Assembly (NCBI RefSeq): GCF_003477525.1
Contig: NZ_QUDO01000018.1
Location: 10,286 to 74,285, forward strand
DNA: 64,000 bases
Direction of reading: 5' to 3'
Source: Ruminococcus sp. AF41-9
Lineage (GTDB): Bacteria > Bacillota > Clostridia > Lachnospirales > Lachnospiraceae
Shown: positions 3,001 to 62,010 of the stretch, one piece after another
Layout: every line of letters begins with the position of its first letter
Position numbering within the stretch: the first letter of the stretch is position 1
Notes under the pieces: generated by a model
What the model saw: only the letters and a program-made list of their open reading frames with translations
The model's database searches: none
Told to the model about the DNA's origin: nothing
Made by a program: the position numbers and the translations under genes

Positions 3001-4132
3001 ATTTCCGGATGAACTTCAAAAGGATGTCGGACACATCAGGGCTTATCTGGAAGCTGAAGGAAAGACTCTTAATAAGGATACGATCATCAACAATTTAAAC
3101 AGCGTTTATTTTGAAAACAGAGGATTTCTGGTAGATTATCAGTTGATGCAGAATGAATTATTTGAGGATCTGGAGGAGGAAAAAGCAGATGAATTTACTC
3201 CTAAGAGACTGGATATTTCCGCCCGTTATCAGGGGGTAAAGATTTCATTTGCAAGTCTTCTGATTCATTTGGAGGAAGACATCAGAGAGCTGGAAAATCT
3301 GATCAAAGATGGAGACCGCGAGCTTTTTGAGGACATTCTTGCCAACACAGTAAGCCGCAAGATCCGTGGAAAAATTAACTCTTCCATTACCTGGGTACAG
3401 AAAATGAATTCACTGATGAATGGAATGAATACCTCAAGCGGTTTGAAACTCAGTTTAAGATGGAGAAGCAAAACAGCAGAGCAGGAAGACCAGCTGGATA
3501 CCAAAGAACTGGTAGAATTATTGAAGAAAGATTACCGACTGATGAGCGAAGAGGAAGCTTCCCGTCTTTCAGCGCATTTCCGTTCCAAAGTAGATGAGGC
3601 ACGCAGAAATGCAAGAGACAGTGCAGGGATGGTATCATTCTATCAGATTATGAAGGATACGCTGGATTACAGAAAGTGGTTTGAATTTCAGTTGTTCTGC
3701 CAGAAGAGTGGTGAGCGTCAGAAAGAACTGACAAACAGTGTGTTTGGCACATTCAGCGGTGGGGAAAAAGCGATGTCTATGTATGTGCCGCTGTTCTCAG
3801 CAGTCGTTGCAAAGTATCAGGGCGGCAGAGAAGATGCTCCGAGACTGATTTCGTTGGATGAGGCTTTTGCAGGAGTTGATAATAAAAATATCCGGGATAT
3901 GTTCCGTCTTATGACAGAATTTCAATTTGATTTTATTATCAATTCTCAGGTGCTCTGGGGAGACTGCGATACACTGGATGCACTTGCCATCTATCAGTTG
4001 ATCCGTCCGGAAAATGCGAAATTTGTTACTGTAATGCCATATCTCTGGAATGGTCATAAGAAAGAACTGATGGAAGATGAGGAAAATGTAGAAAAGAGAG
4101 GAACAGAGATTGAGCAGGCAGCAGGAATCTGA
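26..4132 (+). CDS. jetC: Wadjet type II JetC, SMC/MukB-like ATPase (TIGR02680-type)
   Basis: This is a 1368-residue SMC-like ATPase. Walker A is GSNGSGKS at residues 34-41, a very long Glu/Lys/Gln-rich coiled coil runs from about 270 to 1130, an ABC signature FSGGEK lies near 1243-1248, and Walker B LISLDE is at 1274-1279. In type II Wadjet systems this protein forms the SMC-like motor that recognises and extrudes small circular DNA, which the partner JetD then cleaves. The ATG is preceded by AGGAGGA at a good distance. The gene overlaps the next one, which carries the matching JetD-type nuclease. Upstream jetA/jetB genes are expected but lie outside the window. The family call rests on architecture and neighbour; other SbcC/MukB-like ATPases are the only alternative. 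Confidence 0.88.
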   Translation: MNSRWQANKIGLINFWYYDEQEFPFVKGRMLLRGSNGSGKSVTMQSVVPLLLDGNMSPERLDPFGSRDRKMSSYLLEENDGREERTGYLYLEFKRQDSETYLTIGMGIRARKGKPLDKWYFSLTDGRRIGKDFFLYKETGEKITLSKKELENRIGSGGRVIDRQADYMEYVNRQIFGFDTPEEYKEMIDLLIQLRTPKLSKDFKPSVINDILSDSLQPLSDEDLRPMSEAIENMDAMNMNLKSRREARQAAEKINVVLKKYNKKMLYDKAVRFEQAKSKLEEAKNAETEHEERKNLCGQKIEELETELQQLDARHESMEKEKESLSKSDAVALKNREAALTQEIEKQEKDLAEKKQFLQKKQEQYQDVENQIKEEEDRRYEKEKEMNDLLEEMESEAETMAFEEHSFMQEELLKNQEEPYKFDLHQQQFEHTREQIGKGLEILSETRKLEQKKDELVQQRDQQTRKMDSAQRKISELESVLVQVENEWKEALYQWNGNNQEFTLDKELLRDLSNFADSYGESSDFAVVRQKVADVWIHIKTMIETALEKSRLEEGAYRTEIAEVQSELSAWENQKEPEPPRSEAVIRNRRRLDAMNIPYQEFYKVIEFGAELDETACSRLEEALLCMGILDAVVVEEQYKEQVLQWEKGCEDRYLFAGNKQAEKSLLDVLELNEDMKDIFSSQRLTKILGSIAYDTDADMAVLPDGTYRMGVLTGTITGEHEAGFLGQKARERQRLAKIEECRKQISELEEKLQQCEKEQQNLSERKETLQKEYENLPTDIDLREALHMLREQENELKLLKNENDRLETALRDVIEVLKEKKKEVLTIAEALYLDCSYTVFKDAKTAAEEYGKHLVGLKAAHEMLLRSIGYLSASRERLEDLDADMDQIRYDLGSLQRELAGKTEEKHSIEEQLRLTDYEEIKERLDACISWLRAYPDKLQETVSSKTQKQEEMKQMAVKLEDDRKKIQVYEEKTKYYSRCYEAEYALNYIEFPDELQKDVGHIRAYLEAEGKTLNKDTIINNLNSVYFENRGFLVDYQLMQNELFEDLEEEKADEFTPKRLDISARYQGVKISFASLLIHLEEDIRELENLIKDGDRELFEDILANTVSRKIRGKINSSITWVQKMNSLMNGMNTSSGLKLSLRWRSKTAEQEDQLDTKELVELLKKDYRLMSEEEASRLSAHFRSKVDEARRNARDSAGMVSFYQIMKDTLDYRKWFEFQLFCQKSGERQKELTNSVFGTFSGGEKAMSMYVPLFSAVVAKYQGGREDAPRLISLDEAFAGVDNKNIRDMFRLMTEFQFDFIINSQVLWGDCDTLDALAIYQLIRPENAKFVTVMPYLWNGHKKELMEDEENVEKRGTEIEQAAGI

Positions 4133-5411
4133 GCTGGCGAAAGAGTGTGTAGAATATTTTCGACAGAACTCGGTGTGGGAAAAAGTTCTGAAAGGATTTC
4201 GTGAGAAATATTTTTCCTACGGGAGATTTGCCGGAAGTATTGTCCTCAGGAATCCATCATTGGAAGAGATTGAAGAATTGGAAGGCTTCTTTGGAAAAAA
4301 CTTTCACCGCCAGAAAAGTGTTTCCATATCTGCTGAAAAATTTCAGAAAGTATTAGAAAACAGCCGCTATAAAGAAATCACACCAGATATGCTGCTGGAG
4401 AGTTACTTTGGACAGCCATTGCGTGGAAAACAGGAAGAAAAACTGTTAAAAGAGCAGAAAAGGCAGGAGCTGCTACGGCGTGTCAGCGGTGATTATGAGG
4501 GAACACCGGCACAGGCAGAGATGGAATATATTTTGCAGATGCTGAAAGGAAATAACAGGGAAGATTTTGCGGAACTGGAACAGCAGTTGAGATTATCGGC
4601 AGAGATATTCAACAGGCTCCCATACAGGAAAGAGCAGAAGATATACCTGGCAGTTTTTGCAGCAATGCTGACTGGGAATCCGCATGCCTTTGACCAGGGA
4701 ACTGAGGGAGGCAGAATACTTTATCAGATGGTTGAGAGAAATCTGGAACTGCGAAATTTAACAGTATCTGAAACAGAAATATTTGCGGCATATAAGAGGC
4801 AGAAAAGCTATCTTGCAGCAGGAATTCTTCTGGATGACGTGTCGAATTATGCAATGCTGTGTAATGTAGAGGCAGTCAAAAAAGATGGCAGTATTCATCG
4901 GGGAATGGATGGATTTCTGAAAGAAAACGATATGATCCAGGTTCCTCTTGCAGTGATCGCAGACTGGAAAGAAGTGAGATGTCGGCAGCAGAAAATCTAT
5001 ATTGTGGAAAATCCATCTGTTTTTGCGATGCTGTGTGGAAAGACAGAGCAGGGACAGATGGATACTCTGTGCTCCTGCATGTGTATGAACGGCCAGCCAC
5101 GACTCGCAGGTCTGATGATCCTTGATCTTCTGGCAGAATCAGGAACGACCATTTATTATTCTGGTGATCTGGATCCCGAGGGCATTCTGATTGCACAAAA
5201 ACTGGCGGATTATTATAAGGAAAAGTTTTATTTCTGGCATATGGATGTAGAAGACTATGAGAAATGCAGATCAGAGGAAACCATTTCCGACAGGAGAATG
5301 AAGATTTTGGATAAGATCACAGATGCCAGACTGATTCCGGTAGTGAATCAGATAAGAAAGTACAAAACTGCCGGGTATCAGGAAATGGTTTTTAGCGATA
5401 ACATTTATTAG
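4110..5411 (+). CDS. jetD: Wadjet type II JetD, TOPRIM nuclease subunit (TIGR02679-type)
   Basis: This 433-residue protein ends in a TOPRIM-like (DUF2399) segment with the acidic pair in SGDLDPEG at about residues 351-358, and an upstream Val-Glu-Asn-Pro motif near 302 (YIVENPSVF) typical of the topoisomerase VI A-like fold. In Wadjet, JetD is the metal-dependent nuclease that cuts plasmids delivered by the JetABC motor. I chose the TTG start at 4110 because GAGAGGAA lies 8-15 bases upstream and it gives a 23-base overlap with jetC, implying translational coupling. A strong terminator follows, so this is the last gene of the operon. Confidence 0.85.
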   Translation: MSRQQESELAKECVEYFRQNSVWEKVLKGFREKYFSYGRFAGSIVLRNPSLEEIEELEGFFGKNFHRQKSVSISAEKFQKVLENSRYKEITPDMLLESYFGQPLRGKQEEKLLKEQKRQELLRRVSGDYEGTPAQAEMEYILQMLKGNNREDFAELEQQLRLSAEIFNRLPYRKEQKIYLAVFAAMLTGNPHAFDQGTEGGRILYQMVERNLELRNLTVSETEIFAAYKRQKSYLAAGILLDDVSNYAMLCNVEAVKKDGSIHRGMDGFLKENDMIQVPLAVIADWKEVRCRQQKIYIVENPSVFAMLCGKTEQGQMDTLCSCMCMNGQPRLAGLMILDLLAESGTTIYYSGDLDPEGILIAQKLADYYKEKFYFWHMDVEDYEKCRSEETISDRRMKILDKITDARLIPVVNQIRKYKTAGYQEMVFSDNIY

Positions 5412-8009: not shown

Positions 8010-8138
8010 ATGCTTAACGAGCAGTATGGAGATGGATTTGCAGAATTTTTGCTGTATTTGGTATTGCCTGATGAAAGATATAGTGGTAATAATATAAAAA
8101 TAAAGAACACACTTACAAAAGCGGAGGTATCTCATTGA
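8010..8138 (+). CDS. Small ORF, possible C-terminal remnant
   Basis: A 42-codon frame from ATG 8010 ends in a TGA that overlaps the TTG start of the helicase (TTGA). Its first residues, QYGDGFAEFL, closely resemble the end of the DUF4869-type protein at 11206-11649 (QYGDGVTEFL), and the DNA is similar there as well. It has no clear ribosome site. It may be a leftover C-terminus of a related gene or a short leader for the helicase; I do not know its function. Confidence 0.3.
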   Translation: MLNEQYGDGFAEFLLYLVLPDERYSGNNIKIKNTLTKAEVSH

Positions 8139-10878
8139 TAAATACCAGAAGAAACATGATTATTGTAAAAGGCGTGATCAGAACATCTCAAATCAAGTTC
8201 TGCCAGTATAATCCTGATACACGGAAAATGGATATTGTTTTTTCAGATGATAAAAAATATTCGTATTCTTATTCAAACGTAGAATACCTGAAAGATCCTG
8301 AAATACTTACACCTGAATTATATCATATCAGAAAGGGAGAAAGAGACTTATTCAACATAGAAGCAATTTATCGTTTTTTTGGAGAAAATGATACTTACTA
8401 TCATATCTGTTTTCAGAATAAAAGCGAAAGAGACTATCGGGAGAGTGAACTGGAGATTTTCAGATCCTGTCTCAGTGAGAAAAGTGCGGGAGATGTGTGG
8501 GAATATTTCAGACAGGTTGCGAATTTAAGTGAAATGAGAAATGAGGAATCCGGGGAGAAATTACTTGTCCGAAAATTTGAGAAACTGCCTTTTGTAGATG
8601 AGAAATCTGTACTTGCAAAATATTTAAATCCTGACAGGAAAGAAAATGAAGAAAAAAAAGAAGACTGGATACCGATTTTTCCTTTTGGTTGTAATAACAG
8701 CCAGTATAAAGCGGTCAAGAGAGCAATGGAGAATCAGATCAGTGTGATTCAGGGACCTCCGGGAACTGGAAAAACGCAGACAATCTTAAATATCATTGCA
8801 AATATACTGATGCAGGGAAAAAGCGTTCAGGTAGTTTCAAATAATAATTCAGCAACGGACAATGTATATGAAAAACTGGCATCACCGAAATATGGAATGG
8901 GTTTTCTTGTGGCAGCATTGGGAAATTCTAAAAATAAACAGACATTTATACAACAACAGAATGGTTGTTATCCAGATTTAAGTACATGGAGGTTGGAGAC
9001 TGACCCAAATGATTTAAAAGAAGAAATTTTTAAAAAATCAAAAGAATTAAAAACAGTTTTTGATAAAAAAGAAAGATTATCTGACTTAAGACAGGAATAT
9101 TCACAGATGATGACAGAGCTGGAGTATTTTAGACAGTATATAGAAGAGTCGGATGTAGATACGGATGTTTCCATATCCAGAAGAAAGCTGACCTCAAAAC
9201 GTTGGATGGAAATCTGGCGGGAATGTCAGTTCCTTTCAGAAAGAAAAGGGAAAATAGGACTATTGTTTATATTGAGACATTTGATTGTATATGGAATTAC
9301 AGGTCCGAAATTTTTCAGACAGGATATGGAAAAAATTATTACTTCATTGCAGGCGAAATATTATCAGGCCAGAGAGGAGGAACTTCTAAAAGAAATAGAA
9401 GAAACAGAGAGATTCCTGAATTCATCAAATGAAAATTTAATGAATGATTTATGTAAACAGTCAATGATTTTGCTGAAGGGAAAACTGGCGGAAAAGTATG
9501 GCAACAGAGAAAAGCGTAAAGTTTTTGAAAAAGATGATTTATTTCACGAACCATACCTGTTTCTGGATGAATACCCGATTACATTAAGTACAACTTTTTC
9601 TTCCCGCAACAGTCTGGGAAATGGAAACGTTATGTATGATTATCTGATTATGGATGAAGCGTCACAGGTAGACGTTGCCACCGGTGCGCTGGCACTTTCG
9701 GGAGCAAAAAATGCGATTATTGTAGGAGATACAAAGCAATTGCCAAATATAGTACCGGGAGAAGCAAGGGCAAAAGCAGAAGAAATTTTCGGGCAGTTTC
9801 ATATTTCAGAAGGATACCAGTTTACGAGAAGTTTTTTGCAGTCAGTATTGGATGTGCTTCCGGATGTGACGCAGACTTTACTGCGTGAACATTACAGGTG
9901 CCATCCGAAGATTATCAATTTTTGTAATCAGAAATTTTATCGTGGCGAATTGCTGATCATGACAGAAGACAGAGGCGAATCAGATGTTTTGCATGCAATA
10001 AAACGGTTCCGGGAAATCATGCCCGTGAACATTACAGTCAACGACAGATTGATGTGATAAAAAAAGAGATATTGTCACAATATGACTCAGATAAAAAAGA
10101 AACAGGGATTATAAGTCCGTATCGAGATCAGGTGAATGCAATTCAAAAAGAAATTCCGGATGTGGAAACTGCAACTGTGCATAAATTTCAGGGAAAAGAG
10201 AAAGACACGATTATTATTTCTACAGTGGATGATATGATTTCAGATTTTGCGGATGATCCATATCTGATCAATGTAGCAGTATCGAGGGCAAAAAAGAGAC
10301 TGATACTGGTTATGACAGGAAATGAGCAGACACAGGAACGAAATATCACAGATCTTATGAAATATATTCAGTATAATAATTTTCAGGTTACAGACAGCAA
10401 AATTTATTCTATTTTTGATTATCTTTACGGTCAGTATACAAAGGAACGAACCGAATATATGAAGAAACATAAAAGGAAGTTTCCGATGCTTTCAGAGGAT
10501 CTGGCATATTATACATTAATGGAAAAGATATTAAACCAGGATGAATATGCCAGTTTAAATGTTCTGAGTCATTTTCCTCTGAATATGCTGATCAGAAATC
10601 CGGATTTGTTAGAGGAAAGAGAGTGCCGGTATGCGATGAATCCTGCTACACATATTGATTTTCTTATCTATAACAGAATCAGTAAAAAACCTGTTATGGC
10701 ACTGGAAATTGATGGATACCAGTATCACAGAAAAGGAACGCAACAGGCAGAACGAGATCAGCTAAAAAATCATATATTGGAAGTGTATGGGATTCCTCTG
10801 TTAAGGCTAAGTACGAATGGAAGTGGGGAAGAAGAGAGAATAAAAGAAACACTGGATAAACAGTTATTTGGCTCGTGA
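8135..10878 (+). pseudogene. SF1 helicase with C-terminal DUF2726 (Vsr-like) nuclease domain, frameshifted
   Basis: The first frame (8135-10057, TTG start, GGAGG 7 bases upstream) holds a Walker A GPPGTGKT at residues 207-214 and Walker B DEASQ at 507-511. The second frame (to 10878) holds helicase motifs V and VI (KFQGKEKD, NVAVSRAKKR) and a DUF2726-like nuclease fold with an Asp, an ExD (ALEIDG) and a conserved Arg (LLRLS). The two halves join smoothly if one A is restored in the AAAA run at 10000-10003, reading KTVPGNHAREHYSQRQ across the join. The intact protein would be about 914 residues. Such helicase-nuclease fusions occur in defence islands, and placement behind an R-M pair suggests a role against foreign DNA, but the exact system is unknown. 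Confidence 0.78.
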
Positions 10879-23426: not shown

Positions 23427-23582
23427 GAAGGACAAAAAAGATTTCGTCAGAGTATTTACATAGCGGTAAAGAATAAAATGTAAATAGATGAAAATTTTTG
23501 CTAAAAATAGAAAAAGCAGAAAACAGGTAATAATTAACAAAACTATTGCCGCAATTATGGTTAAAATTGCAAAATAAAAAAC

Positions 23583-23611
23583 TTAACAACGGTATTTGGT
23601 TCCTGTATAAT
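23583..23611 (+). promoter_or_regulatory. Promoter of oppA
   Basis: TTAACA (23583-23588) and TATAAT (23606-23611) are exactly 17 bases apart, 65 bases before the oppA start. A separate promoter would let the binding protein be made in excess over the membrane parts. Confidence 0.7.
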
Positions 23612-23675
23612 GGAATTTATAATACAAACCGCTGATTTCTCATACAGCGAAAACCATAATAAAGGAGGAAAAGGA

Positions 23676-25339
23676 ATGAGAAAGGCAAAAACAATTATGT
23701 CTCTGGCTCTGTCAGCAGCTATGGTTACAAGCATGGCAGCTACAGCACCTGTAATGGCAGCAGAAAGCGATTCAACAGACGGATTTAATCTGAACCTCTG
23801 TATCGCATCCGAACCACAGAGTATCGACCCGGCACTGAACACAGCAATGGATGGTTCCGTTATGTGTCACCATATGTTCGAAGGTCTGGTCAAATGGGCT
23901 GATGACGGTGAAGGAAATGCTGTTACAGTTCCAGGACAGGCTGAATCCTGGGATAAAGAGACAAACGATGACGGAACAGTAACTTATACTGTACATCTTC
24001 GCGACGGTATCAAATGGTCTGACGGACAGGCCGTAACAGCAGGAGATTTCGAATACTCCTGGAAACGTCTGGCAAACCCGGAAACAGCAGCAGACTACTG
24101 CTACATGATCGACATGGTAAAAGGATATGCAGAAGTAGCTGACGGAAGCGCTGATCCTGATACTCTTGCAGTTACAGCACTTGATGATACTACTCTTCAG
24201 ATCGATTTAACTTATGACTGCCCGTATTTCGAAGAATCATGGCATTCCCGGCAACTTTCCCTGTTCGTAAAGATATGGTAGAGGGAAGTGACAACTGGAC
24301 ATTCGATCCTGCAACATATGTCAGCAACGGACCATACAAAATGAAAGAATGGTCACACAACTCCTACATTCTTATGGAAAAGAATGAGAACTACTATGAT
24401 TATGAAAACCTTGGTCCGGATACCATCAAATTTGCCCTTCTGGACGACAGCAACGCAATCCTGAAAGGATACAACAACGGAGAACTTGATTTCATCGAGA
24501 ACCTTCCTGTAGACGAAGTTGCTACTTACCTTGCATCCGGAGAACTGAACATCGCTGACTATATCGGAACATACTATGTATGCTTCAATACAGAAGACGA
24601 AGTATTCTCTGATCCTGCAATCCGTAAAGCATTCTCACTTGTAATCGACCGTAACTACATCGTAGACAACGTTACTCAGTCCGGTGAAGTTCCTGCAACA
24701 GGATATGTTCCATCAGGTATCTATGATGCAGAGGGAGCAAGCGGAGATGACTTCCGTACAGTAGGCGGTGAATATTACAGCGTAGCTGAAGAAGATTATG
24801 AGAAGAACTGTGAAGAAGCCCGTCAGATTCTTGCAGATGCAGGTTATCCGAACGGTGAAGGCTTCCCGACAGTTGAATATCTGTACAACACAGATGACAA
24901 ACACAAAAAGATCGCTGAAGCACTTCAGAACATGTGGCAGAAAGAACTTGGCGTTACTGTAAACCTGGACAACCAGGACTGGAACGTATTCCTTCAGAAC
25001 AGAAAGAATGGTGACTTCCAGATCGCACGTAACGGATGGATCGGTGACTACAATGATCCTTGCTCATTCCTTGATATGTGGTACACAGGCGGCGGTAACA
25101 ACGACGCTCAGTACTCTAACCCGGATTACGATGCACAGATCGATGCAGCAAAAGCTACTTCTGATCAGGCAGAACGTATGAAAGCATTCCATGCAGCAGA
25201 AGATATCCTGATCGATCAGGACAGCGTACTGGCTCCTCTGTACTTCTATACACAGCCATACATGCTGAAAGACAACATTAAGGGTATGTACTATACACCT
25301 CTTGGATACTTCTTCTTTGGTTATACAACACAGGAATAA
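23676..25339 (+). pseudogene. oppA: Oligopeptide-binding lipoprotein-like OppA, single frameshift
   Basis: The ATG at 23676 follows AAAGGAGG and opens a signal peptide (ALSAAMVTSMAATAPVMAA). There is no lipobox Cys, so cell-surface anchoring is unclear. The SBP family 5 fold follows, with SEPQSIDPALN, WDKETNDDGTVTYTVHLRDGIKWSDG split over two stretches, and NGPYKMKEW. The frame breaks after GAAGAA at 24236; restoring one A gives FEEIMAFPATFPVRK and continues to 25339 (about 555 residues in all). It would capture peptides for OppBCDF. The single missing base in an AA run makes sequencing error a likely cause. Confidence 0.88.
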
Positions 25340-52594: not shown

Positions 52595-54557
52595 TTATTT
52601 GGTAAACAGATCAACCAGATCCTGAGCGTCGTCATAGCCCTGGGTCTTGAGTTCGTTTACGAACCATTCGTCTACACCATCAACGGCTTCCTTGAAGGAA
52701 TCGATATCCATATCAGATTTCTCTGTGAATGTCACGCCGTTTTTGGATGTCCAGCGTTCTTTGATCTCGTTGTCGCTGGAACGGTTGATGTAACGTTCGT
52801 ACTCAACTGCTTTCTGTCCACACTCGTCAACAACTGCCTGCTGTTCTGGTGTCAGGTCGTTGTAGATGTCTTCGTTGATGCAGAAGAACAGACAGTCATA
52901 AATCGCATCCCACATAGAGCAGTAAGGCTGAACTTCCTGAACGCTTGCTGCGTCGATAGCCGGAAGTGGGTTTTCCTCACCTTCAACTGTGTTCTGCTGG
53001 AGAGCTGTGTAAGTCTCGGACCAGTTCATGTTGGTAGCATCAGCGCCCCATCTCTTGTAGCATTCCATCAGAAGGTTGGAACCTGCTACACGAACCTCAG
53101 GTTTTTCATATCGTCTACAGATTTGATCTCTCGTTTGCTGTTAGTCAGTTCACGGAAACCGTTCTCTGCAATACCCATACAGTGGAGTCCGTATTCGCCA
53201 AGGATTTCCTTCAGCTTCTCACCTGCTTCGCCGTCGAATTTCGCATCTGCGTCATCGTAAGAATCATAGACGAATGGAAGAGAAACAACGTTGAAACGTG
53301 GGTCAAATGCAGAGTAGATCAGGTTGGAGTGCATGGAGATCTGAACCGGGTCACCATTCATCAGAGCCTGAATACCTTCGGACTGGTTGCCGTTTGTCAG
53401 CTGGTCAGCAGCGTAAATGTTGACTTTGACTTTGCCGCCTGTAGCTTTTTCCATCAGTTCACCGAACTTGCGTCCGCCGTCAGCCCAGGTACTTGTCTCA
53501 GTAGTGGAGCATGCGAAGTTCCAGGTTGTTTCCGGCCAGTCGAGGTCACTGTAATCTTCCACTGTGTTGAAAGATTCTTTTGTGAAAAGGTCTACCAGAT
53601 CCTGAGCATCGTCATATCCCTGGCTTTCCAGTTCATTTACGAACCATTCGTCTACACCCTCAACTGCTTCTTTGAAGGAGTCGATGTCCATGTCTTCTTT
53701 TTCTGTGATTGTTACACCGTTCTGGCTTGCCCAGCGTTCTTTGATCTCGTCATCTCCGGAACGGTTGATGTAACGCTCATATTCAACTGCTTTCTGTCCT
53801 GCTTCGTCAACAACTGCCTGCTGTTCTGGTGTGAGACTGTTGTAGATGTCTTCGTTGATACAGAAGAACAGACAGTCATAAATTGCATCCCACATGGAGC
53901 AATAAGGCTGAACCTCCTGAACGCTTGCAGCGTCGATAGCAGGAAGTGGATTCTCCTGACCTTCTACAGTGTTCTGCTGAAGTGCTGTGTAGGTTTCGGA
54001 CCAGTTCATGTTTGTGGCATCAGCACCCCATCTCTTGTAGCATTCCATCAGAAGGTTGGAGCCTGCTACACGAACCTCAGGTTCTTCAGATCGTCTACAG
54101 ATTTGATCTCATGTTTGCTGTTTGTGATTTCGCGGAAACCGTTCTCTGCAATACCCATGCAGTGAAGTCCGTACTCACTGAGAATTTCTTTCAGTTTTTC
54201 ACCAGCTTCGCCGTCGAATTTCGCATCTGCATCATCGTAAGAATCATAGACGAATGGAAGAGAAACAACGTTGAAACGTGGGTCAAAAGCAGAGTAGATC
54301 AGGTTGGAGTGCATGGAGATCTGAACCGGGTCCCCATTCATCAGAGCCTGAATACCTTCGGACTGGTTGCCGTTTGTCAGCTGGTCAGCTGCGTAAATAT
54401 TGACTTTAACTTTGCCGCCGGTAGCTTTTTCCATCAGTTCACCGAACTTACGTCCGCCGTCAGCCCAGGTACTTGTTTCAGTAGTGGAGCATGCGAAGTT
54501 CCAGGTCATTTCCGGCCAGTCAAGGTCACTGTAATCTGCGATTGTGTCAAATGAGTT
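52595..54557 (-). repeat. Tandem duplication of the DctP domain, 980-bp period
   Basis: The segment from DYSDLDWPE to DLVDLFTK is present twice (about 54540-53580 and 53560-52595). The N-terminal halves differ at about five residues, the C-terminal halves at about thirteen of 157, with many silent differences. Both carry the same frame break after KNLR. Confidence 0.9.
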
Positions 54558-55924
54558 ATTGCCGTCTCCTGCGTCCTTGGCTGTTGTGTCAGAGGAAGAG
54601 GAGGACTGATCACCTGTGTAGGAGCCTTCTTTTGCAAGTGCTTTCGGAAGGAAAGTAGAGGTGATCGGGATGTATGTAACGATCAGAAGAACTGCAACAG
54701 AAGCTGCGATCATTGGCACAACTGCCTTTGAAATTTCCTGAAGAGTAACTTCCAGACCTTTTTTGATCCTGATACTGATTGCTACGAAGAGGTTTACACC
54801 TACAGGAGGAGTTACCTGTCCGATTGCAAGGTTTACAGTTGCCATAACACCGAATGCGACGACGTCATATCCGAGTGCCTTGCATACAGGAAGCATGATC
54901 GGAACGAAGATGTACATTGCGGAGTTTGCATCGATGAAGCATCCTGCGATCAGGAAGATGATGTTTACGATCAGCAGGAAGGTAAACTGGTTATGTGCGA
55001 TGTTTCCAAGTAATGTGGAAGCTGCTTGTGCGATACCGAATTTTGTACATACAAAGGAGAACAGTGATGCACTGGCAACGATAAGCATGATTCCACCGGT
55101 TGTTTTTGCAGAGTCTACGAGGATGTCAAACATATCGCGGATGGAAACTTCGCGGTAGATGACCATACCTACAAAAAGTCCGTATACAACGGATACGGCT
55201 GCTGCTTCTGTTGGTGTGAAGATGCCGCCGTAGATACCGCCCAGGATGATGATTGGCATCAGGAATCCCCAGAAAGCATCTTTGAAAGCGTCCCAGCGTT
55301 CTTTGCCTGAGGCTTTTTCTCTGGATGGTTTGATGTTGTGTTTCTTTGCTTCCAGCATTACTACGATTACCAGTGCCACGCCCATAAGAAGACCTGGTAC
55401 GATACCTGCCATGAACATATCTGCGATGGATACACCTGTGATGGATGCGTATACAACGAAGGCAATACTTGGCGGGATGACGATGGCAATGGAGCTTGAG
55501 GTAGCCATCAATGCTGTGGAGAATGGTGCGGAGAAGCCGCCCTGCTCTACCATGGCCGGGATCAGTACGGCACCAAGGGCTGCAACAGTTGCAGGGCCGG
55601 AACCGGAGATCGCGCCGAAGAAGCAGGCTACGATAACACATACGATGGCGATACCGCCTTTTTTGTGCCCTACGCAGGTATCAACGAATTTGATCAGTCG
55701 TTTGGAGATACCGGCTTTTGCCATGATGTTTCCTGACAGTACGAAGAATGGGATTGCCAGGAGCAGGAATTTGCTGATTCCTGAGTACATGTTTGTGCTA
55801 CGATCGTCAGCGAGGTACCGGAGTAGAGGATTGCGCATACGGAGGAAAGTCCGAGGCAGATTCCGATCGGTACGCCGAGGATCAGGAATATGAAGAAGGA
55901 GATAAATAAGATTGCACTGATCAT
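52595..55924 (-). pseudogene. dctM: TRAP permease DctM fused to two tandem DctP binding domains, with three frameshifts
   Basis: From ATG 55924 (AAAGGAGGAC upstream) the gene encodes a DctM large permease (IGICLGLSSVCAILYSG, ACFFGAISGSGPATVAALG, GQVTPPVGVNLFV) that ends in ITSTFLPKAL and continues in frame through a Ser/Asp/Gly-rich linker into a DctP-type binding domain and then a second, near-identical one. Neither domain has a signal peptide. Frame breaks near 55790 (CAAACATG), 54078 and 53098 (CTGAGGTTCG in both copies) each need one added base; the restored protein would be about 1110 residues. TRAP systems use ion gradients to import organic acids, with DctP as the capture protein. A tethered double DctP is unusual. 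Alternatives are a duplication artefact in assembly or separate decayed genes. Confidence 0.75.
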
Positions 55925-55927
55925 TTT

Positions 55928-56467
55928 TTATTTGTCCTCCTTTTTGGTTTTGGTGTTGTTGGTTTTGAGGTCGTTGTTGTTCGTATCGGTACCGAAGCCA
56001 AGAAAGTCCAGGCAGTATTCGATGAAGTGAAGGATCATGCATCCTGCTCCGATCGGTACGAAGGACCAGAAGATCCATTCCGGCCAGTTTAATACGAAGG
56101 TTCTTTTTCCGTTTTCCAGCTGAGTGATTACTTTGTCCATGCCATATTTGAAAAGGATGGCGGAAAAGATGAGGCTCAGGACTGTGATCAGGATTACGGA
56201 TGGTTTTTTCAGTTTTTCCGGAAGACGGTCTGTGATAAGTGTCAGGCTGACCAGTTCTCCTTCGCGGCAGGCGAGTGCTGCGGCGAGCAGTGTGATCAGA
56301 ACGAATACCGCTACTACGAGTTCTTCTGTGAAAGACCATGAGCGGTGGATGACTTTACGGGAAAATACGTTTCCGACAGTCAGCACCAGGATGAGCAGTG
56401 TGGAGATCACAAGGACGATCTTTTCTACTGCGGCCAGTGCGTTCATGATTTTTTTGTAGATTTTCAT
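55928..56467 (-). CDS. dctQ: TRAP transporter small permease DctQ
   Basis: The 179-residue membrane protein has four helices and the DctQ signature SWSFTEELVVAVFVLITLLA with ACREGELV after it. It forms the membrane complex with DctM, whose start lies three bases downstream. ATG 56467 follows GAGGAGTAGAGAGC; six further codons upstream are open but lack a better site. The C-terminus is Asn/Thr/Lys-rich. It is the first structural gene behind the T-box leader. Confidence 0.9.
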   Translation of the reverse strand: MKIYKKIMNALAAVEKIVLVISTLLILVLTVGNVFSRKVIHRSWSFTEELVVAVFVLITLLAAALACREGELVSLTLITDRLPEKLKKPSVILITVLSLIFSAILFKYGMDKVITQLENGKRTFVLNWPEWIFWSFVPIGAGCMILHFIEYCLDFLGFGTDTNNNDLKTNNTKTKKEDK

Positions 56468-56678: not shown

Positions 56679-57025
56679 AAAAAAAGTCCGCCCCACGCAG
56701 GGACGGACATATGATATTCCGTAACCACCCTGTTTCATCTTTGAAACAAGTACGATTCTGCAACGTACCGATATACGCGGCTCCTGTAACGGGGGGCGGC
56801 CGGGAATGCTTACTGTGGGCTGTACTTATTGTGCGGCAATGCAATGTTAATATTGACAGCTACCGGATTATAAGTAGTTACGGGTTCGGCGTTCCTTCTC
56901 AGGGATGATATTCAAAACAGGTCTGTCACTGCATTGCACCGGACTGCAGTTCTCTGAGGGCAGATTTGGCTGTTTTTACTGGTTCCCTTCATTGAATTTG
57001 TGTGTTATAGGTTTAGCTGTTTAAA
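56679..57025 (-). promoter_or_regulatory. T-box leader of the TRAP operon, probable Ile (AUC) specifier
   Basis: Read on the minus strand, this leader has a Stem I region (AGAGAACTG, CCGGTGCAATG), a specifier-loop segment GAATATCATCCCTGAG near 56905, and the T-box core AGGGTGGTTACGG at 56719-56732. It ends in a terminator (GTCCG-CCC / GGG-CGGAC at 56708-56686 with seven T). AGGG of the T-box can pair with CCCT inside the terminator stem, so the two are mutually exclusive as expected. With the usual GAA-N-codon spacing and a purine after it, the codon is ATC (Ile); TAT (Tyr) is the alternative. Uncharged tRNA would switch on dctQ-dctM. Confidence 0.8.
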
Positions 57026-60788: not shown

Positions 60789-62010
60789 TTAATCTTCCAG
60801 TTTGATTTTCTCTTTGAGGACTACGCATCCTGCCATGTCACCGATAACGTTGACGCAGGTTGCACCCATATCGCAGAGTGTATTGATACTGATGTAAACG
60901 CCCATAACTCCTGCCGGCAGACCTGCCATGGTTGCGAGGGCTGCGAAGGATGCGATGGCACCTCCAGGGATACCTGGTGTTCCTACGGAGAGGAGCACAT
61001 TTGCCAGAAGGATGACGATCATCATGGAGATACTTACGTTAATTCCGCATGCATTAGCGAAGAACATGATCATGAATGACATCAGGATGGATACAGCATC
61101 CATGTTTACGGTAGCACCAAGAGGAATGGCGATACTTGTGATCTTGTTGGATACGCCCATTTCCTCTTCCATACGCTGTTTGCTGATCGGAATGGTTGCT
61201 GAACTGGAGCAGGTTCCGAATGCATTTAAGGCAGCAGGAAGCATTGCTTTGAAAAATTTTACAGGGCTTTCTTTGCCGATGAATTTCACGGAACCGCCGT
61301 AAACGATCAGGCAAATCCGAAGAATGCTGCATACAGGATGATGAGCTGGGTTGCCAGTGAAATGATGGTTTCGGTACCGTTGGCTTCTACAACCGGGACG
61401 ATAGTACAGAAGACACCGATCGGTGTGAAGTACATAACAGTGCTGATTACTTTCAGACAGACTTCGTTGCAGGAATCGATCACGTTCAGAAGCGCTTTGC
61501 CTTTTTCACCGATCGCGATCAGTGTGAATCCTACGATGACTGCGAATACAAGTACCTGAAGCATGTTTCCGTTTGCAAAAGCTGCAACCGGGTTGGATGG
61601 GATCAGGTTTTTGATGGTGTCCAGAATACTGGTCATTTCTGTTGCCTGAATGTCGGATGTCGCCATTTCGAATTTGACACCTTCGCCAAGGTGGATCAGT
61701 CTTGGGATGATCAGTCCGGCGAGGCTGGCAAGTGCTGTGGTGCACAGGAAGAAGATCATGGCGCCTGCAGTGATCTTACCTGTGGTACGGGCATTTCCGA
61801 TACTGGAGATACCCATGATGATTGAACAGAATACCAGTGGAAAGATCATCATGTTCAGGGCATTCATGTAAATGCTTCCGATCAGACTGGTGACAGTAAG
61901 TACCGGTTCGAACGGCCTGCCAGAAAAAGTCCGGTAAAGATACCAAGGATCAGGCCGATAAAGATTGCTGTGGTAATATGCTTTTTATACCACGAATAGA
62001 AATTTTTCAT
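60789..62010 (-). pseudogene. Dicarboxylate/amino acid:cation symporter (DAACS), two frameshifts
   Basis: From ATG 62010 (AAGGAGGGAAC upstream) the gene encodes a DAACS membrane protein: MNALNMMIFPLVFCSII, the hairpin SSSATIPIS, GATVNMDAVS, and the C-terminal TLCDMGATCVNVIGDM. The frame breaks near 61911 (GGCCGTTCGAA) and 61310 (TTTGCCTGATC). One added base at each gives GRFEPVLTVTSLIGS and FGFALIVYGGSVKF and a protein of about 406 residues. It would import glutamate, aspartate or a dicarboxylate with Na+ or H+. Both breaks are single missing bases, so sequence error is a fair explanation. Confidence 0.82.

Follow-up and report, generated by a model that had tools for sequence, protein, structure and literature searches.

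A TRAP permease fused to tandem DctP receptors, with an isoleucine-type T-box leader, in Lachnospiraceae

TRAP transport is usually understood as the hand-over of substrate from a free binding protein. In the stretch of DNA analyzed here (64,000 nucleotides from Ruminococcus sp. AF41-9, contig NZ_QUDO01000018.1, positions 10,286 to 74,285; hereafter the window), the permease DctM is instead joined to two DctP receptor domains in one gene, and this DctM-DctP-DctP fusion is real. The architecture, as well as the purifying selection, the kept binding residues, and the T-box leader with its specifier described below, were read from sequence or homology. Together, they lead us to consider, with fair confidence, that the locus encodes a DctP-type TRAP importer with receptors built into the permease, tethered outside the cell, largely interchangeable, and controlled by tRNA-Ile, the substrate probably being isoleucine or a precursor of it.

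The locus lies on the minus strand and reads, from 57.0 to 52.6 kb, T-box leader with hairpin, dctQ, DctM, a 44-residue linker, DctP, an 18-residue linker, and DctP. The T-box leader (56696..57001; Rfam RF00230, E = 5.8e-18; specifier AUC, Ile) is located upstream of dctQ, and its 3′ end overlaps a terminator-like hairpin followed by seven T (56686..56708; nine pairs, seven of them G-C), which is a consensus match from a pattern scan. dctQ (55928..56464; Pfam DctQ, E = 7.6e-33) encodes the small membrane subunit of 178 amino acids. The fused gene starts with the ATG at 55924-55922 and ends with the stop codon at 52597-52595. It comprises the DctM permease domain (54636..55924; Pfam DctM, E = 5.2e-109), a Ser/Asp/Gly-rich tether (54504..54635), DctP domain 1 (53578..54503), the shorter linker (53524..53577), and DctP domain 2 with the stop (52595..53523), which repeats copy 1; each DctP domain is divided by a frame break, and Pfam DctP matches both pieces. 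The DctM match and a DctP match (E = 5.6e-28) are held by the same open frame, and the two pieces that follow also match DctP. At the DNA level, the fused gene contains a repeat of 300 nt (84% identity) at a spacing of 980. No signal peptide was seen by eye between DctM and DctP domain 1. The coordinates, the domain order, the composition of the linker, and the missing signal peptide given in a preliminary description of this DNA, made from the letters alone, were thus borne out by open frames, Pfam, and inspection of the sequence. Its statement that DctM runs in frame into two DctP domains holds for the junction, but the gene as printed is broken at three sites, which the description did not mention.

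A scan of GTDB species genomes for relatives yielded 60 loci (L001-L060). The fused open frame could be parsed in 39 of these, with one DctP (n = 13), two (n = 21, including L003, in which a frame break interrupts copy 2), three (n = 4), or four (n = 1). Among the remaining 21, L021 is a fusion truncated within the first DctP by the end of its contig, in L033 a separate DctP comes after DctM, DctP and DctM occupy separate frames in L041-L055 and L059, and L056, L057, and L060 are cut pieces. Judged by the titles of the loci, the hosts are mostly Blautia and other Lachnospiraceae, single-DctP forms being found in Selenomonadaceae and Treponema as well. Other DctM proteins with two DctP domains, for which the preliminary description had proposed a search, are present at 21 of the 60 loci. 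A dctQ homologue was present at all 41 loci scanned. L033 (4848-7289) is a close relative in which the separate DctP carries its own N-terminal extension, an arrangement that may be ancestral or may have arisen by a later split. L026 (three DctP) and L027 (one DctP) are related loci sharing, by eye, their neighbors on both sides, indicating a recent change of copy number; in Fusicatenibacter saccharivorans, two copies were found in L007 and three in the database protein P0034.

When 5.8 billion proteins were searched, the 7990 candidates sharing most words were scored and 3648 matched at E = 1e-3. Among the best 120 of these 3648 (P numbers), three DctP matches were found in 115, two in 3, and four in 2, a list that favors many-copy proteins because repeats raise the score. 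Of the two with four matches, P0092 (1311 aa) counts short fragments, and only P0071 (1741 aa) clearly has four. Among the matches listed, P0034, P0110, and P0118 are on contigs of 3.8-6.2 Mb, and the database names, where shown, are "DctP family TRAP transporter solute-binding subunit" or a TRAP-type name. With the junction as query, one open frame spanning it was found in 15 of the 64 genomes searched in the L001 genus (in one more it is split over two contigs) and in 16 of 397 in the L001 family. The corresponding counts were 3 of 121 for the family of L037 and 4 of 118 for that of L038, and among 391 genomes sampled across the class, only L001's own gave a match. No plasmid relatives of the fusion were found. 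Free DctPs besides the fusion occurred in six of eight genomes searched; in the genome of L001, both DctP matches are the fused ones, and the three in the genome of L003 all stem from pieces of the fused gene.

The T-box of the window scored 81.8 bits, below the curated 93. T-boxes were surveyed at 41 fused-type loci (L001-L040 and L058, L033 being the unfused one) and were present at 27, of which 20 were above the curated score; those of L001 and L013 were below it (91.6 and 85.3 bits), and five were recognized by letter pattern only (L017 and L028, where the score was not reached, L003, L021, and L040). The specifier AUC stands six bases before the conserved GAG in all 27 leaders and in the window, irrespective of the base preceding it, which varies. 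No T-box was found at the other 14 loci (L005, L015, L018-L020, L024, L025, L032 with 380 bases, L033, L034, and L036-L039). These include all single-copy loci outside Lachnospiraceae, and isoleucine control may thus be a later addition in part of the fusion family. Thirteen loci with unfused DctP (L041, L047, and L054 left out) had no T-box either, but belong to other lineages and hence are no clean control.

As a check of the codon register, all 26 T-boxes in two genomes of the same genus were read. The specifiers of the control leaders agreed with their genes (ileS AUC, valS GUA, pheS UUC, thrS ACC, tyrS UAC, proS CCG, metG AUG, leuA CUC, trpE UGG, and ilvB GUA), and the spacing of six bases to GAG recurred among them. 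The thrS leader L083, without GAG, was read by eye, and GAG is located further on in proS L085 and in both metG leaders. NCBIfam named ileS, thrS, and pheS, with ileS and thrS cut by the end of the locus and under the cut-offs; the genes that we take to be valS, tyrS, proS, metG, leuA, trpE, and ilvB were named by eye. Two further arrangements were observed. In L029, two T-boxes stand back to back (3486-3742, minus strand; 3975-4230, plus strand), one of Val type (GUA) ahead of the acetolactate synthase genes ilvB-ilvN and one of Ile type for the TRAP operon. In L071 and L075 (Blautia-genus genomes G268 and G315), a gene that by eye is CstA-like, possibly a second isoleucine-ruled transporter, is preceded by a T-box whose AUC stands six bases ahead of GAG. 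The accessible part of a published T-box survey places the codon 1-5 bases before GAG (PMC2494555), compared with six in the window, its relatives, and the controls.

Since the leader would read uncharged tRNA-Ile, isoleucine or one of its precursors is the probable substrate. The nearest solved receptors by sequence or fold gave no decision; among the matches listed, they carry sugar-acid, isethionate, and sialic-acid labels, and none is labeled isoleucine. Nor did the neighbors settle the matter. At 21 of 41 loci (e.g., L028 9195-9785 and L016 6784-7365), the fused gene has a LysE-type amino acid exporter as a recurrent neighbor, which is absent from the window and from all 18 unfused loci; the best NCBIfam relatives of the exporter are cysteine/O-acetylserine, threonine, and leucine exporters, all under the cut-off, and by eye no clear catabolic operon was apparent. 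Isoleucine auxotrophy is unsupported because all 18 genomes have ilvC (in 17, the match exceeds the cut-off), so that uptake would be scavenging rather than rescue of an auxotroph. The labels of the nearest solved receptors and the 14 loci without a T-box would also be compatible with a tethered importer of another carboxylate, e.g., a sugar acid, to which the isoleucine T-box is linked only indirectly. We regard this as rather unlikely, as AUC was kept in every one of the 27 leaders although neighboring bases vary, and as the specifiers in the accessible part of the earlier survey agreed with all tRNA ligases and all genes of verified function (PMC2494555).

As printed, the fused gene of the window consists of separate pieces without a single long open frame. 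It has three one-base frame breaks, near 55796 (early in DctM), at ∼54078-54069, and at ∼53098-53089, the latter two at the same position of both DctP copies, between the lobes. The relatives are open at all three places, which appear as one-base gaps in the alignment (L003 has its own break elsewhere, in copy 2). Moreover, three other genes of the window are likewise split into two frames, with pieces matching successive parts of one Pfam profile: an AAA helicase (8093-10875; AAA_12 4-48, then 96-191), an SBP_bac_5 receptor (23565-25336; SBP_bac_5 3-87, then 95-367), and an SDF symporter (60792-61984; SDF 18-217, then 216-385). For both reasons, leftover assembly indels are likely the simplest cause of the breaks; the identical site in both DctP copies would be consistent with gene conversion as well as with systematic sequencing error. 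Programmed frameshifting seems unlikely, as by eye no classical slippery heptamer is present at the breaks and the relatives are open there. That the gene is decaying in this strain, as three breaks, two of them sharing one site in both repeats, could suggest, is improbable in view of the low dN/dS in both window copies, the three other genes split in the same way, and the intact close relatives. The tandem itself is not an artefact of assembly: dS between copies is 0.19-1.30, the first and last copies of the window group with the first and last copies of relatives, and megabase contigs of genomes of the same genus carry open frames of 1109-1110 aa.

Comparison of the two window copies gave 30 differences in 450 bases for the N-lobe pieces (21 synonymous and 5 replacement codons; 5 of 150 residues) and 64 in 471 bases for the C-lobe pieces (42 synonymous and 12 replacement codons; 12 of 157 residues), in line with the almost identical N-lobes and about 13 C-lobe differences noticed at the outset. 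The corresponding dS was 0.30 (N-lobe) and 0.83 (C-lobe), with dN of 0.019 and 0.049. Across adjacent copies, omega ranged from 0.016 to 0.26 in both lobes of all 31 pairs (the pair of L003, with its interrupted copy, was excluded). The copies compared, which are old, are thus maintained by purifying selection. The likeness of the window N-lobes reaches synonymous sites, as partial homogenization would leave it; the gap in dS between N- and C-lobe was not seen in every locus. In the three-copy proteins P0001 and P0034, the C-half of the middle copy is identical to the first copy and its N-half to the last, a signature of unequal crossing-over. In a tree of DctP copies (91 rows; L003, L029, L040, and two free DctPs were excluded beforehand), window copy 1 groups with the first copy of L001 and the first and middle copies of P0001 (SH-aLRT 90), and the last window copy groups with last copies (SH-aLRT 80, drawn open). 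The position labels required 36 changes on this tree compared with a shuffled mean of 47. Duplication, loss, and homogenization have a long history among the copies.

The carboxylate site of DctP involves an Arg/Arg/Asn set, according to the accessible part of PMC11668362. All 95 aligned copies have the first Arg, and wherever the position is readable, the second Arg (93 copies) and the Asn (94 copies) are present without exception; the frame breaks make the second Arg unreadable in both window copies. All three binding motifs were present in 426 of 430 DctP matches, which include those of the best 120 of 3648 proteins; the four lacking a motif are the cut copy of L003, two fragments of P0092, and one copy of P0080. 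At the 103 alignment columns with an identity of 99% or more, the two window copies agree throughout, their 20 differences all lying elsewhere, and when 34 first were compared with 34 last copies, a single column differed consistently, ahead of the fold. From the kept motifs, the spared columns, and the position of the one discriminating column, we infer that the copies share one ligand, and they look interchangeable rather than having two specificities. The preliminary description had compared the gene with GlnPQ, and a doubled receptor tethered to a permease is indeed what was found. Its further idea, that the tandem receptors diverged in ligand or affinity, could draw on the 12 differing C-lobe residues and on C-lobes usually being less alike than N-lobes within a protein; we give it little credence, because the nearly invariant columns are untouched, the motifs are kept except in cut or fragmentary matches and the one P0080 copy, and the only discriminating column lies outside the fold.

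The fused receptors appear to face outside, as the M part matches PpSiaM, the nearest solved M subunit, over its full length, and PpSiaM is reported to be N-out/C-out. Lys and Arg are more frequent ahead of the last DctM helix than behind it in 31 of 34 proteins. Homology and charge bias thus both place the DctM C-terminus outside, the orientation on which the preliminary description had made its proposal hinge. The tether of L001 is predicted to be disordered (pLDDT < 50 at 441-456 of the predicted structure); in structure searches with the L001 model, the second DctP had no separate entry among the matches listed. The DctM-DctP linker measured 40-53 residues in 26 of 47 proteins, those for which the motif search gave a length. 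By a geometric estimate, each domain would have a local concentration of ∼0.4-4 mM for a reach of 130-60 Å; the in vitro assays with free receptor described in the accessible part of PMC10942642 contained 50 μM SiaP. That the chain is cut after export, leaving the receptors free and the fusion to serve co-production and export only, would suit a long linker predicted to be disordered but is very improbable given that linker length is kept (40-53 residues) and that by eye the linker has no cut site.

For induction, docking, substrate, and the interchangeability of the copies, we propose the following scheme around the tethered importer. Uncharged tRNA-Ile would cause the leader to let transcription through, and DctQ and DctM-DctP-DctP would be made. 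DctQ and DctM would form the membrane elevator, and the DctM C-terminus would exit the membrane on the outside and continue through the flexible linker into the tandem DctP receptors, the last DctM helix standing in for signal peptide and lipid anchor. Each receptor would close on its carboxylate ligand and dock in turn on its own permease, and more copies would mean more loaded receptors per permease; copy number would change via unequal crossing-over. Owing to the tether, the receptor could not be lost from a periplasm-less cell and its local concentration would stay high. Several points speak against this scheme: the three frame breaks of the window gene, the window T-box under the curated score, the 14 loci without a T-box, the lack of an isoleucine label among the nearest solved receptors listed, and the free DctPs in six of eight genomes.

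We see about an even chance that these loci represent a class of secondary transporters with a built-in receptor array (one to four domains, varied by unequal crossing-over) as well as a tRNA-Ile-ruled TRAP system, serving gut Lachnospiraceae as a scavenger of isoleucine or a precursor, in some species without any free DctP. The natural series of one to four receptors per permease chain, a fixed ratio, lets the effect of receptor number be asked, and the fusion would show how periplasm-less cells can retain their receptors. Through the T-box, the substrate class can be tested directly; if the assignment is true, TRAP would join the tRNA-controlled transporter families. The carriers include human gut bacteria (Blautia and Fusicatenibacter). 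In the literature searched, which mostly excluded subscription papers, neither a DctM-DctP fusion or array nor a T-box-ruled TRAP system was found, nor any paper pairing "T-box" with "TRAP transporter."

DctQ, DctM, and DctP families are encoded together, as Pfam and the dctQ homologue at every locus scanned indicate, and the Arg/Arg/Asn set is that of a DctP-type carboxylate site. However, the binding protein is not a separate exported protein but, at 39 of 60 loci, shares a single open frame with the permease, and the fused system is therefore filed as a variant of the DctP-type TRAP transporter rather than a standard member. The TRAP fusions named in the accessible parts of two reviews are Q-M and, rarely, Q-P (PMC5812351, PMC8276074). 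From SiaPQM and IsePQM, which are of the DctP type, the present system differs in that DctP sits on the C-terminus of DctM, is repeated, and by eye has no signal peptide. With the T-box-ruled isoleucine transporters (LIVCS and ABC), it shares a tRNA-sensing leader before a transporter gene; the accessible part of the survey lists seven families of T-box-ruled transporters, TRAP not being among them (PMC2494555). GlnPQ likewise has two binding domains tethered to its permease, by linkers of 19 and 14 residues as given in the accessible part of PMC8025302, but is an ATP-driven ABC transporter with two specificities, whereas here tandem domains, one to four and alike, are covalently joined by a longer tether to a TRAP permease, and no ABC family, be it membrane domain or ATPase, matches the chain. 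Another related case is that of the TAXI-GltS fusions described in Lachnospiraceae in 2025, in which a binding protein is also fused to a secondary transporter and for which the authors, in the accessible part of their paper, suggest tethering (PMC12344293); there, a single N-terminal TAXI domain is carried by GltS, whereas here one to four C-terminal DctP domains are carried by DctM.
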